Assembly (NCBI RefSeq): GCF_022879575.1
Contig: NZ_CP084262.1
Coordinates: 620,001 to 684,000 of the forward strand
Direction of reading: 5' to 3'
Length of the DNA stretch: 64,000 bases
Source of the DNA: Caballeronia sp. SL2Y3
Lineage (GTDB): Bacteria; Pseudomonadota; Gammaproteobacteria; Burkholderiales; Burkholderiaceae
Shown piece after piece: positions 24,610-29,591 of the stretch. The stretch's first letter is position 1, and every line of letters begins with the position of its first letter. Below the pieces are notes generated by a model that was given only the letters and a program-made list of their open reading frames with translations, was not told the DNA's origin and did no database searches. A program made the position numbers and the translations under genes.

Positions 24610-25023
24610 CTAGACTTGCTTGAGACGGCGCAGGGCGTCGTTCCGCGACGTGCCGACCGCAGCCGGCGGCGTTAGAAGCGCGCTGTCGTTCCGGTCGACC
24701 GGCCGCGCGGGCAGCGTGCGCTGCAATCCGGCGCTGAAGCCCTTCCGAAATGCGCGGCGGTAGGTTCGGCGGTACGCTTCTTCAGCCGACACTTCGCCGG
24801 TGTAGTCGGACAGCGCCTCGGTCAGCGCGCGCTGCTCGTGCGCGAGCGTGCGCAGCAGATCGATCAAAACAGACTGCCCGACGCCCGCGCCGTCCCCGCT
24901 CGCGAGCACATCCGACAGCGCGGCGACCGCACGCGCCACATCGGTGCTGCGCTTTTCGATTGCCACCGCATGCGCGATGACAGGATGCCCTTCGGGGGTG
25001 ATCGTGATCTTGACTCGGTCCAT
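24610..25023 (-). CDS. Small protein of unknown function, paralogue of the gene at 25805-26155
   Basis: The ATG at 25023 is selected for its GAGGAAGAG ribosome site; a longer frame upstream has none. The 137 residues begin MDRVKITITPEGHPVIAHAV, a short beta-rich motif, followed by helices (VARAVAALSDVLAS, LRTLAHEQRALTEALSDYT) and a basic, probably disordered C-terminus (TYRRAFRKGFSAG..., LRRLKQV). The first 75 residues align by eye with the product of 25805-26155: IT.xxG..V..HA..I at the start and L.....E...L.ALE.T at the same distance. No known domain is recognised. Confidence 0.72.
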   Translation of the reverse strand: MDRVKITITPEGHPVIAHAVAIEKRSTDVARAVAALSDVLASGDGAGVGQSVLIDLLRTLAHEQRALTEALSDYTGEVSAEEAYRRTYRRAFRKGFSAGLQRTLPARPVDRNDSALLTPPAAVGTSRNDALRRLKQV

Positions 25024-25178
25024 CTGCTCTTCCTCGTTGCTCGGTACATGGCGCAACGCGCCAGGTCCTTCGCGAGAAAGCATTTCTTTGCATCCGGACG
25101 AACGGCGGCGCGCGGCCGCGCGAAGTGTGCCGGAGTCGATCGCGGGCGGCAACTGCCGTGGCCCTCGGATGCAGCGTT

Positions 25179-25589
25179 TCAGGCGTTGACGCGCCGTGCC
25201 GGAACTTCGTCCACCGCCACCGCAGGCGCGTCCATCTCACGATCGACATGCTGCTTCAGCACGTCTTCCCAATATTGGCAGTAGCCGGCCCAGAACGGCG
25301 CTTGCGTTTGCGCGCAGGCATCGGCCGGCAGCGGATGCGGCAGCATGCGGGCGAGCCGCGCAATCTCCCTGCGCTTCCACTGCAGCAGCGTGCGGCGCGG
25401 GCCGCGTACGGCCGGGCACAGTTCGTTCATGCGCGTGATGGCCAGCCACAGACCTTCGGCCGGATGCGAAGCCATGGTCGTGAGAATGGCGGTGTTCGGG
25501 CGCGGCCCGCGCTCGTGACAGACGATGGCGCCGATCTGCCCGAGAATGTACATGCTTCGTTCGATACTCTCAGCGGCTGGCGGCTGCAT
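25179..25589 (-). CDS. Protein of unknown function between two paralogous small genes
   Basis: The ATG at 25589 has AAAGGA at suitable distance and gives 136 residues; upstream starts (25619 ATG, 25661 GTG) are possible. It looks soluble and helical, with SMYILGQIGAIVCHERGPRP, EGLWLAITRMNELCPAV, LLQWKRREIARLARML and PFWAGYCQYWEDVLKQHV segments. Several Cys and Trp are scattered without a metal-site pattern. It is on the same strand as its neighbours at 24610 and 25805, with gaps of about 155 and 215 bases, so cotranscription is uncertain. Confidence 0.7.
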   Translation of the reverse strand: MQPPAAESIERSMYILGQIGAIVCHERGPRPNTAILTTMASHPAEGLWLAITRMNELCPAVRGPRRTLLQWKRREIARLARMLPHPLPADACAQTQAPFWAGYCQYWEDVLKQHVDREMDAPAVAVDEVPARRVNA

Positions 25590-25804
25590 GGCGCGTCCTT
25601 TTTCTGATGGTTGTTTCATGGCGCTCTCGATTGCCTCATTGCAGCAGGAAGCCGTTGCCACACGGATTCCGGCATCGCGATATTGATACGTTATAGCGTG
25701 AGCACATTACGATACCGTATCGAAAATAATCGGGATCGCATATCGACAAAAATCTACATTGACGACGGCGGTTTTTGCTGCCGCTCCCCAGCGATTACCC
25801 GCGA

Positions 25805-26155
25805 TCACCGTTGCGTGTAATCGATGGGCTCCGGCGGCGCGTTGGCCGGCAGTTCCTGGCGCCGCTGCTCGGTTGCGGCGTGGACGCCCTTGTCGTAGAA
25901 GGCTTGCGCGGTGTGTTGCTCAAGGGCGGCGAGCAATGGAACGCTTTCTTCCGCCAGCGAATGCATGAGATGCAGGATGTCGCGCTTCATTGGCTCGGGA
26001 AACGCGCAGAAGTGCTCGAATGCGCCGGGCGCGGCGATCATGCCGACCAGCGACGAAAGCAGTCGCGCGCGGCTTTTGCAATGCTCGCCGATGGGCTCGG
26101 CGTGCGAAACGACGACGCGCCCCTGCGCATCCACCGTAATGTCGAAGGACTTCAT
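25805..26155 (-). CDS. Small protein of unknown function, paralogue of the gene at 24610-25023
   Basis: The ATG at 26155 is preceded by GAGGT and gives 116 residues. It starts MKSFDITVDAQGRVVVSHAE and continues with helices AGFEHFC-like and LHLMHSLAEESVPLLAALEQHT. It ends with a hydrophilic tail NAPPEPIDYTQR. The N-terminal 85 residues resemble the product of 24610-25023 in order and spacing of motifs. The rest of the long open frame upstream on this strand is antisense to, or out of frame with, the serine hydrolase gene and is not coding. Confidence 0.7.
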   Translation of the reverse strand: MKSFDITVDAQGRVVVSHAEPIGEHCKSRARLLSSLVGMIAAPGAFEHFCAFPEPMKRDILHLMHSLAEESVPLLAALEQHTAQAFYDKGVHAATEQRRQELPANAPPEPIDYTQR

Positions 26156-26286
26156 GCGATACCTCGCTCGCCTCGAATGTCCGCCATGGCAACGGACGCA
26201 AAGCGAGATTACCTGCGCGCGAGGCTTTGATCTGCGCTCAGTTCGGAAACGAAGGCGCAAGCAATTCGAAACAACGCCGGCGAGGA

Positions 26287-27249
26287 TCAGCGGGCATGGA
26301 CGCCGAGCACGTGTTCTTCGAAGAGCGCGCGAACGTTCTTGTTCGCGGCGGTGTTGTCGCATGTGGCGGCTGCGACGATTCCCGCCTCGCGCGCCACGAA
26401 GATGAACTGCTCGCCGAAGCCCGCCGCGAACGCATAGCGCGGCGCGATCCACCACAGGTAGCCGTACTGCGCGTCCTGCATCGGCGGGCCGCCTTCGCTG
26501 TGCACCGACATGGCGTCGTCGATGAACGACGCATCCACCAGCTGCGCGCCTTGCCATGTGCCGCGATCCAGCATCAGCGTGCCGAGCTTCGTCATGTCGC
26601 GGGCGCGCAGCATGAGGCCGCGCCCCGCGAACGTGTGGCCGTCTTCGTCGGCGATCCATTCGCTGGTTTCGATGCCGAGCGGCGCGAACAGCTTGTCGCG
26701 CACGTAGGCTTCGACGGTCGCGCCCGTCACCGCTTCGATGGCGAGCGAGAGCAACTGCACCGCGTGCGAGTCGTAGCGAAAACGCGTGCCGGGCGCGTCG
26801 GCCATCGGACGCGAAAGCACGAAATTCAGGCGGTCGTCCTCGCCGGCGAGCCGCTCGCACGCGCCGAGCAGACACTTGTCCACTGCGCCCGGTTCGCAGT
26901 CGAAGCCCGAGGTCATCGTGAGCAGATGGCGCAGCGTGATGCGTCGCACGCGCGCGTCCAGTGCGGGATCGCGCGCCTTTTCGATGATGTCGCCGATCGG
27001 CGTGTCGAGGTCCGCGAGCAGCCGCTCGGTCAGCGCGATGCCCACGGCCAGCCCCACGACGCTCTTCGTGACCGAATTGACGTTTTCGAGCGTATCGGGC
27101 GCGGCGTCGCTGCGGTAATGTTCGAATTCGATGCGGCCGTCCCGCGCGACGACGAAGGTTCGCACGCCGCTGTTCTCGCTTTGCAGCGCATCGCGCAGCG
27201 CGCGCGGGCCCTGTTCGTCGACGGAAGCGTCTTCCGTTGTCATGTGCAT
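26287..27249 (-). CDS. Serine hydrolase of the beta-lactamase/penicillin-binding (class C) family
   Basis: Starting at ATG 27249 gives 320 residues without a signal peptide, so it is predicted to be cytoplasmic. The active-site motif SxxK is present as Ser59-Val-Thr-Lys62 (NVNSVTKSVVG), and a Tyr-x-x motif as RYDSHAV. Other family marks are LRHLLTMTSGFDCEP, GLMLRARDMTKLGTLML and YGYLWWIAPRYAFAAGFGEQ, as in esterase EstB and 6-aminohexanoate-dimer hydrolase. It could hydrolyse esters or amides; true beta-lactamase activity is unlikely without export. It is divergent from the UbiB-like gene. Confidence 0.85.
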   Translation of the reverse strand: MHMTTEDASVDEQGPRALRDALQSENSGVRTFVVARDGRIEFEHYRSDAAPDTLENVNSVTKSVVGLAVGIALTERLLADLDTPIGDIIEKARDPALDARVRRITLRHLLTMTSGFDCEPGAVDKCLLGACERLAGEDDRLNFVLSRPMADAPGTRFRYDSHAVQLLSLAIEAVTGATVEAYVRDKLFAPLGIETSEWIADEDGHTFAGRGLMLRARDMTKLGTLMLDRGTWQGAQLVDASFIDDAMSVHSEGGPPMQDAQYGYLWWIAPRYAFAAGFGEQFIFVAREAGIVAAATCDNTAANKNVRALFEEHVLGVHAR

Positions 27250-27439
27250 GGTGGTCCAAGGTAGACCGCAGGAACGCGGGTTCGATTCGTGCTGCAAGAT
27301 GCTGCAAATCGAGCAAGCCGAATGCCACGGCACACTCAAGCCAAAAGGACTTCATTTGCCCGTCCGACGACTCGCAACGCTCTGGCGTCTTGGCCGGGCG
27401 TTCGTCCGCGAAAGCCATTCACATAGCGACGGCGCGTCG

Positions 27440-28789
27440 ATGCAACGCATCGCGCGCTTTTTCGCCATGCATGGCGCGCGCGCCGCGCCGCTCGCGGGCG
27501 GCGTGCCGGCGTTGAGTCAGTTACCGCGCGTGTTCTCGCTGGCGTCCGACGCGCTCACGCGGCATCCCGCGCTCGCGGAAGCCGCCGTGCGCGTGGCGCT
27601 GTCCGAGATGGAAGGCCTCTTCACGCCCTACGATGCCGCCAGCTTTCGCAGCGCAATCGCGCTCGCGCTCGCAGCCGCGCCGCGCGCCGAAATCACCGAG
27701 ATCAGCGCAGCGCCGCTGCGCTCGGGCATCGCGGAGCAGACGCATACGGCGCGCATCGACGGTGTGCCGGTCCGCATCACCCTGCTTCGCGCGGACGCAC
27801 GCCAGGAACTCGCCGACGATCTCGATCTGGCGCTCGCCGCCGCGCGCTTCGCCGAGCGGCGTTCGGCGACGGCCCGCGAGCTGCAGGCGATGCAGTGGTT
27901 GAGCCGCGTGCGCGAGAGCGTGCATTCGATGATCGACCTGCGCCAGCGCGCCGCCGATCAAAGCTATCTGCGTTACCGCCTGCGCGACGACGACCGGCTC
28001 GCCGTGCCCGAAGTGCTCTGGGACTTTTGCAACGACGCCGTCTTGACGACGCGCGCGATCGACACCGTGCCGCTATCCGACGGCCACGCGCTCGCATCGC
28101 ACGGTCTCAAACAGGCGGATCTCATCGCGACGCTGATCGAAGCGTTCTTCGAAATGGCGCTCGGGCAGGGCGTGTACCACGCGGGGCTGGATGCAGCGGG
28201 CGCGCGCGTCAGCATCGAGACGGGCACGCGCGGCAGGATCGTGCTCGAAGCCGACAACGCCATTTCGTTCTTCGCGGCGCATGAGCGCGATTTCATCGTC
28301 GGTGTGTCGAACTCGCTGCTCGAAGGCGATCACAAGGCGGCGGCGCGCACGCATCTGGAACACGGGCGGCCAGAGGAACACGCGGCGCATCACGAAGTGC
28401 GCGTCGAATCGACGTATCGCCGGGAAGCGGAGCGGTTCTCGTCGCCGGATGCGCGGCAGGGCGCGCGCGTCTCGCATTTGTTCGATGCGATCGGCAAGGC
28501 GCCCGCCGAGCACATGTTCAGCGCGGCGCACGGGCGCATTGCGTCGCGGGCCGTGCTGCTGTCGCGTTCGATGGAGACGATCGAGCGCATGGCGCATACG
28601 GTCGCGCCGGATGTCGATGTGTGGAAGATCGCGCGGCGCGTGATCGCGCGGCTCGCGGCGGACCAGTTCGGCTGCCACGGACTGCTCGCGCATCTGGCGC
28701 AGGAAGCGACGCACTGGCCGCAACTGCTGCCGCGTCTGCCGACTTTGATCGCCAAGCGCGCGGGGGCGTCGCAAGGCAACGCGTTCTGA
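27440..28789 (+). CDS. UbiB/ABC1-family protein lacking all kinase signature residues (predicted pseudokinase)
   Basis: The ATG at 27440 gives 449 residues. The whole protein aligns by eye with E. coli UbiB, an atypical kinase-like protein needed for ubiquinone synthesis: AEQTHTARIDGVPVRITLLR with ASIAQVHTARL...VVIKVIRP, IDLRQRAADQSYLRY with LNLLRESANAIQLRR, AVPEVLWDFCNDAV with YIPEVYPDYCSEGM, and DVDVWKIARRV with QLDLWKTAKPF. The functional residues are gone. The KxGQ motif reads SLAS (33-36), the ATP-site Lys is Thr114, the HAD-MHPGN loop reads HAG-LDAAG (247-254), and the helix Glu is replaced near Ser163. The two C-terminal membrane helices of UbiB are also missing. A true kinase or ATPase role is unlikely; it may bind lipids or other Ubi proteins. 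No ubi genes are adjacent. Confidence 0.75.
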   Translation: MQRIARFFAMHGARAAPLAGGVPALSQLPRVFSLASDALTRHPALAEAAVRVALSEMEGLFTPYDAASFRSAIALALAAAPRAEITEISAAPLRSGIAEQTHTARIDGVPVRITLLRADARQELADDLDLALAAARFAERRSATARELQAMQWLSRVRESVHSMIDLRQRAADQSYLRYRLRDDDRLAVPEVLWDFCNDAVLTTRAIDTVPLSDGHALASHGLKQADLIATLIEAFFEMALGQGVYHAGLDAAGARVSIETGTRGRIVLEADNAISFFAAHERDFIVGVSNSLLEGDHKAAARTHLEHGRPEEHAAHHEVRVESTYRREAERFSSPDARQGARVSHLFDAIGKAPAEHMFSAAHGRIASRAVLLSRSMETIERMAHTVAPDVDVWKIARRVIARLAADQFGCHGLLAHLAQEATHWPQLLPRLPTLIAKRAGASQGNAF

Positions 28790-28793
28790 CGCT

Positions 28794-29591
28794 TCAGCGC
28801 GTGCCGGGGCTCATGCGCTCGGCAATCGCGCGGCACGCAGCTTTCAGCGGCGCGACGTAGGTTTCCATCGGCGTTTCGCTTTTTCGAAAGAGCGGGATGC
28901 TCACGCTGACGCAGCCGAGCGGCGCGCCGTTCGCGCCGACGATCGCGCTGCCGTAGCAGAAAATCTGCGCTTCGTTCTCCTCGCGATCTTCGGCGTAGCC
29001 GCGCGTGTGGCACGCGTCCAGTTCGGCGTCGAGCGCGCTTCGGTCGACGATGGTGTTCGGCGTGAATCGCTGAAACGGGATGCCTTGCAGGAGCGTGTCG
29101 CGTTCGGCGGGCGAAAGCGTCGACAGATACGCCTTGCCGACCGAACTCGAATACAACGTGACCCGCGTGCCGATGCGCGACGCCATGCGCACCGCGTGCG
29201 GGCTTTCCAGCTTCTCGACGTACACCATTTCCGCGCCGCTTCTCACCGCCAGATGCACGGTCTCCTGCGTGGCATCGCGCAGCGCCTGCAATGCGTCGGC
29301 GGCGGCGATGCGCAGGTCGGACCGCTCCCAGCTTCGGCTCGCGAGCGACATCAGGCGCGGGCCGAGCGTATAGCAGCCGCCGCGCGCGCTTTCCACGACG
29401 AGCCCTTCGGCCATCAACGCGCCGACGATGCGGTACACCGTCGGGCGCGGATAGCCGCTTTGCGTCGTCAGACGCGCGATGGTCGGCGGCTCGGCGGCGT
29501 CGGCGATCAGTTGCAGCACCGCCATGAACTTGGAGAACGCGGCGGTGCCGGTTGCCTTTGCGGCGTCGAGAGAGGCGGGATCAGCGGCCAT
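28794..29591 (-). CDS. IclR-family transcriptional regulator of the SDR-MFS-cupin cluster
   Basis: The 265-residue protein has an N-terminal winged helix (FSKFMAVLQLIADAAEPPTIARL, then SGYPRPTVYRIVGALMAEGLV) and the IclR effector domain, with SRIGTRVTLYSSSVGKAYLSTL and NEAQIFCYGSAIVGANG. It lies last on the minus strand after SDR, MFS and cupin genes, 45 bases from the SDR stop, so it is probably in the same transcript. The likely target is the long inverted repeat in front of the cupin gene. Its effector is unknown but probably the compound imported by the MFS protein. Confidence 0.9.
   Translation of the reverse strand: MAADPASLDAAKATGTAAFSKFMAVLQLIADAAEPPTIARLTTQSGYPRPTVYRIVGALMAEGLVVESARGGCYTLGPRLMSLASRSWERSDLRIAAADALQALRDATQETVHLAVRSGAEMVYVEKLESPHAVRMASRIGTRVTLYSSSVGKAYLSTLSPAERDTLLQGIPFQRFTPNTIVDRSALDAELDACHTRGYAEDREENEAQIFCYGSAIVGANGAPLGCVSVSIPLFRKSETPMETYVAPLKAACRAIAERMSPGTR

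Follow-up and report, generated by a model that had tools for sequence, protein, structure and literature searches.

The 64,000-nucleotide window of Caballeronia sp. SL2Y3 DNA analyzed here (positions 620001 to 684000 of the 750-kb contig C3, in a 5.5-Mb genome of five contigs) carries on its forward strand, at 27356..28789, a gene for an ABC1/UbiB-like pseudoenzyme of 477 amino acids. The first-pass annotation, which described it as a UbiB relative stripped of its signature residues, left to be checked whether the genome also has an intact ubiB; it does, and the 524-amino-acid product has all of the family motifs. Besides a normal protein of ubiquinone synthesis, the genome thus keeps a second copy of the same predicted shape with its ATP residues replaced, which suggests that this copy has come to act through binding instead of ATP consumption. 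We tentatively read the gene as the product of a graded line of UbiB paralogues leading to an ATP-independent binding protein at the membrane surface, a reading whose functional part is proposed and which, taken as a whole, is a serious possibility just short of probable.

Similarity to ABC1/UbiB over the whole length, first claimed by eye, was borne out by both of the checks suggested for it, a profile search and structure prediction. The ABC1 domain PF03109 matched with an E value of 5.3e-19 (68.8 bits versus a curated cutoff of 22.9), while the UbiB profiles PRK04750 (E = 8.4e-40, 136.9 versus an equivalog cutoff of 667) and TIGR01982 (E = 1.2e-36, 126.2 versus 487.55) matched far below the scores that would mark a UbiB orthologue. 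The predicted structure has the ABC1/UbiB atypical kinase fold, with a kinase-like core and a UbiB-type N-terminal extension. Chance similarity is ruled out by the profile matches and this fold together; a phmmer search against sequences of the Protein Data Bank returned no match at E values up to 1. Judged by profiles, alignment and model, the protein is homologous to UbiB and its fold is UbiB derived. It aligns with the genome's own UbiB (L001; PRK04750/TIGR01982 type) from end to end at 26% identity, sharing the order of elements, the N-terminal helix, the Asp of ExD, the His of HAD, and conserved Trp, Glu, and Pro positions in the C-terminal part, but it lacks KxGQ, the Ala-rich loop, the Lys, both Glu residues, the catalytic Asp, HPGN, DFG, and the C-terminal anchor. 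In PMC4718504, a pseudokinase is defined as lacking at least one of the conserved motifs for nucleotide or catalysis, a definition that fits the window protein.

Motif columns were referred to the genome's own UbiB and counted in 64 rows of class A, the Caballeronia/Robbsia branch that includes the window protein, and 128 rows of class B, "ABC1 kinase family" proteins of Paraburkholderia and Trinickia. The class B rows, 127 of them distinct, comprise 119 of the 120 listed out of 215 matches plus nine loci. Rows dropped before counting were P0002 (frame-shifted), P0066 to P0070 (partial or of odd length), P0071 to P0074 (other ABC1 proteins), and P0119 (short). Among 20 other UbiBs taken as a control, KxGQ, the Lys, E.D...E..N, and HAD.HPGN matched in all 20, ASIAQVH in 19, and DFG in 18, the remaining two reading DCG.

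Where the genome's UbiB has KFGQ, the window protein has LASD (within S-LASD, residues 61 to 65, 27536..27550); the replacement had been noticed correctly, although as SLAS, one residue off. The Lys of KxGQ is present in no class A row and in one class B row, and the Gln is present in no class A row and in 82 class B rows. No row of either class has a complete K.GQ in the aligned columns; outside those columns, two class B rows have the string near the C terminus, at residue 474. The Ala-rich loop ASASIAQVH has become RSGIAEQTH, ending in EQTH (127 to 130, 27734..27745), and VAVKV has become VRITL, with the beta3 Lys replaced, as first noted, by Thr (Thr142 at 27779..27781 when counted from the TTG start, Thr114 in the earlier numbering). 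This column is Thr in 62/64 class A rows and Lys (107) or Arg (21) in class B. ELDLMREAAN of UbiB aligns with MIDLRQRAAD (192 to 201, 27929..27958), so that ExD reads M-I-D. The ExD Glu column is Met in 63/64 class A and Arg in 127/128 class B rows, and the Asp is retained in every row of both classes. The later Glu, aligned with the partner of the beta3 Lys, is Arg in all class A rows, leaving neither member of the pair in the window protein, and is Glu in 101 and Gln in 27 class B rows. By our alignment, this column would correspond to Glu411 of human COQ8A, which pairs with Lys358 according to passages of PMC4718504.

The catalytic loop HADMHPGN is likewise replaced, as claimed, by HAGLDAAG (275 to 282, 28178..28201). 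The catalytic Asp column is Gly in 64/64 class A rows and Thr (67) or Ala (58) in most class B rows, and neither this Asp nor the HPGN Asn is kept in any row of either class. LDFG aligns with EADN (298 to 301, 28247..28258); the DFG Asp column is Ala in 34, Gly in 29, and Asp in 0 of the 64 class A rows, and Glu in 64 and Asp in 33 of the 128 class B rows. The HAD His persists in 64/64 class A rows. Thus, the description of a protein without any signature residue stands for the residues that handle nucleotide, whereas the ExD Asp and the HAD His were kept. No relative in either class was found to retain KxGQ or the HAD loop, and the 64 class A relatives rule out a sequencing error or a lone odd frame. 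From these replacements, the protein would not hydrolyze ATP and probably does not bind Mg-nucleotide in the usual way.

Two other uses of the pocket were weighed against this pattern. It may bind nucleotide through other side chains and act as a switch; motif-lacking pseudokinases that bind nucleotides are reviewed in passages of PMC4718504, and class B keeps the Lys and the later Glu in most rows, while its DFG Asp column is acidic in 97/128. Yet class A is without the Lys, the Glu, the HPGN Asn, and the DFG Asp all at once, and its Ala-rich loop is altered, which makes such a switch decidedly unlikely. Alternatively, the pocket may do other chemistry with new polar residues alongside the kept H130, D194, and H275. 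E127 (59/64 class A and 120/128 class B rows) and R196 (64/64 and 126/128) are newly fixed in both classes, and the HPGN His column is acidic in 62/64 class A rows (Asp 35, Glu 27) and Asp in 127/128 class B rows. Kinase-fold proteins with other chemistry exist, to judge from a reference title in PMC9758233 (SidJ, polyglutamylation). The HPGN and DFG regions, however, carry mixed residues, and no neighboring gene common to class A and class B loci was found; we consider a retooled enzyme unlikely.

In a tree of 66 chosen rows, classes A and B were split from 21 UbiBs with a support of 100/100, and class B was the sister group of class A. Class B shares E127, R196, and the acidic residue at the HPGN His with class A and differs in keeping the beta3 Lys, the later Glu, and the KxGQ Gln in the counts given above, as well as a C-terminal hydrophobic segment in nearly every row. 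Because catalytic residues are gone from class B while the anchor and some of the nucleotide residues remain, and both are gone from class A, class B is a plausible intermediate by sequence. Rather than the lone second-level pseudokinase first envisaged, the window protein, with its nucleotide-handling residues indeed lost, appears to be one tip of a graded lineage.

Among 58 genomes of the genus, all had a UbiB-level match (partial in G044). An A1 copy (73 to 100% identity) was found in 30 of them and an A2 copy (54 to 57%) in 13; 2 had only degraded pieces, and 13 had none. Across 299 sampled genomes of the family, proteins matching at 31 to 36% identity occurred in 35/38 Paraburkholderia, 3/3 Trinickia, and 11/11 genomes of a further genus group (g25). 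One of the three genomes of group g15, a Robbsia, had a class A match at 56% identity. The sampled genomes of group g11, which we take to be Burkholderia, have one match each, at UbiB-level E values. When 150 genomes of the order were searched with a profile, the matches listed outside the genus of the window had only UbiB-like scores, as judged by score alone (E = 1.8e-86 for the best match outside the family, 2.4e-85 for the genome's own UbiB, and 5.1e-212 for the window gene).

The ratio of nonsynonymous to synonymous substitution rates (dN/dS) was calculated by the Nei-Gojobori method with our own script for 14 chosen species pairs. They were taken from the 66 that 12 of the 30 A1 genomes allow, have branches in common, and do not count as independent. 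Values were 0.079 to 0.260 for this gene versus 0 to 0.068 for ubiB in the same pairs at similar dS. The gene is therefore under purifying selection, maintained yet less constrained than ubiB, and the first-pass view of a frame that is kept rather than decaying was sustained. A decaying duplicate without function would account for the patchy presence, the faster evolution than that of ubiB, and the fact that three genomes (3.9 to 5.1 Mb) have the gene in broken form, but it conflicts with these ratios, with identical replacement residues in 64/64 rows at several sites, and with A1 frames (L003 to L032) that lack an internal stop in 29 of 30 cases; we regard it as very improbable. The broken copies are in G005 (C121; 4.2 Mb), G015 (C317; 5.1 Mb), and the A1 genome G044 (L032; 3.9 Mb), the last with an internal stop and a short stretch missing. 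Seven more genomes of the genus below 4 Mb have no copy, and broken or absent copies in small genomes fit genome reduction.

The C-terminal anchor had been reported missing, and it is: no transmembrane segment was found there, the best 19-residue Kyte-Doolittle mean anywhere in the protein being 1.27 versus 2.41 in the genome's own UbiB (residue 498). A C-terminal hydrophobic segment (19-residue mean of at least 1.6) is present in 127/128 class B and 0/64 class A rows. The accompanying description as soluble has to be qualified: the predicted model retains an amphipathic helix at the N terminus that had escaped notice (residues 2 to 20, 27359..27415), with a hydrophobic moment of 0.59 versus 0.58 in the genome's own UbiB. 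This helix belongs to a longer reading of the gene than the first-pass one, which began at ATG 27440. Translation probably starts at TTG 27356 instead, since a probable ribosome-binding site, AAAAGGA (27343..27349, read off the sequence), lies 6 nucleotides upstream, a relative in Caballeronia sp. Lep1P3 (83% identical) is annotated from the same point, and the 28 added residues, RRLATLWRLGRAF, are conserved in aligned A1 loci. Against this, a relative in Caballeronia sp. Sq4a (97.5% identical) is annotated from the later ATG. Relative P0001 (93% identical) also has 477 amino acids. Database protein P0002 is identical to the window protein save for about 33 residues in another frame (compare the window open reading frame 27895-28284); by this comparison, it represents the window gene or a near-identical one with a frameshift, whether in the copy itself or in the gene call.

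Gene context gives no firm functional hint. The gene is flanked by a divergent serine hydrolase/beta-lactamase family gene (26287..27264, reverse strand; PF00144, E = 1.8e-31) and a convergent IclR regulator gene (28794..29591, reverse strand; PF01614, E = 2.4e-41). Within 1.5-kb flanks of the 30 A1 loci, the IclR gene was seen in 24 and the serine hydrolase in 20 (one only a partial match). Neither neighbor was found in any A2 or B locus, a 32%-identical IclR match in L038 lying about 7 kb off. Better-annotated A1 flanks hold a short-chain dehydrogenase/reductase, a major facilitator superfamily transporter, and a cupin-type dioxygenase, followed by cyoABCD. An envelope or other isoprenoid-lipid role unrelated to ubiquinone could be read from the serine hydrolase and from an MreB paralogue near 6 of the 16 class B genes whose flanks were read (directly adjoining in L049 to L052). 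Since neighbors vary from locus to locus as well as among A1, A2, and B, adjacency is weak evidence, neighborhood was set aside as a guide to function, and we think such a role quite unlikely. The MreB/Mbl paralogue lies at 2365-3393 in L045 (PF06723, E = 3.3e-121) and recurs in L047 and L049 to L052. On this secondary contig, quinol oxidase genes cyoDCBA run from 32451 to about 36300 on the reverse strand, an end estimated from relatives, and they also lie downstream in other A1 loci with long flanks. Neighbor cluster 1 had no Pfam match. Near a response regulator, three small proteins are encoded on the reverse strand at 24610-25152, 25179-25661, and about 25805-26171. The first two had no Pfam match, and the first and third may be paralogues, as they have an N-terminal pattern in common (ITITPEGHPVIAHA and ITVDAQGRVVVSHA).

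Evolution commonly gives rise to pseudoenzymes. We take the mycobacterial proteins MSMEG_1954 and Rv3197 to be ABC1 proteins; according to their entry titles, they were solved with ADP or AMPPNP, which we counted as a difference. Human COQ8A/ADCK3 (5i35, 4ped) differs too: according to passages of PMC4718504, none of its traditional catalytic residues is missing, and it does bind nucleotide. Passages of PMC7263595 and PMC7615680 present ATP use as central in COQ8 biochemistry and what UbiB/COQ8 does with ATP as still debated. Yeast Cqd1 and Cqd2 resemble our case as UbiB paralogues that exist beside a biosynthetic UbiB, Coq8, and they have a link to lipid distribution, but passages of PMC8346625 report that they function only with their kinase-like and UbiB-specific residues intact. 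A maintained member without ATP-handling residues is therefore unexpected. Among the papers listed by searches of an open-licence library, we recognized none on the A/B lineage.

We propose that a UbiB paralogue in the Paraburkholderia-Caballeronia-Trinickia part of the Burkholderiaceae would have lost catalysis first, while still anchored in the membrane as in class B, and that in the class A branch the beta3 Lys and the Glu paired with it would then have disappeared along with the C-terminal anchor. At the membrane surface, the class A protein could bind independently of ATP by means of its N-terminal amphipathic helix and the UbiB fold it has kept, and this binding might modulate the handling of quinones or isoprenoid lipids, or Ubi proteins, alongside active UbiB. 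The stronger form, that a UbiB-family lineage gave up ATP wholly and binds isoprenoid lipids or Ubi proteins there, is somewhat unlikely. Several points weigh against our interpretation. Those yeast UbiB proteins that have been characterized reportedly depend on their catalytic residues (passages of PMC8346625); the order of losses is inferred from living proteins; and a ligand, partner, or quinone role is a proposal. The tree program flagged long branches meeting, with 3.16 changes per column on the class A stem. The nine catalytic columns together have a conservation of 0.80 in class A, which does not significantly exceed that of random columns, since 14% of random column sets are as high. 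No ubi gene was seen among annotated neighbors, and cyoABCD lies a few kilobases from the gene in A1-type loci only. The gene is also dispensable, being absent in 13/58 genomes of the genus and broken in 3, many of them drafts.

A maintained relative without ATP residues, the intermediates that keep a membrane anchor, and the intact UbiB of the same cells together offer a way of studying what the fold does apart from ATP. If the lineage has indeed given up ATP wholly and works by binding, it would be a natural separation of function, showing that the noncatalytic half of what UbiB does, a job still poorly understood, has a use of its own.
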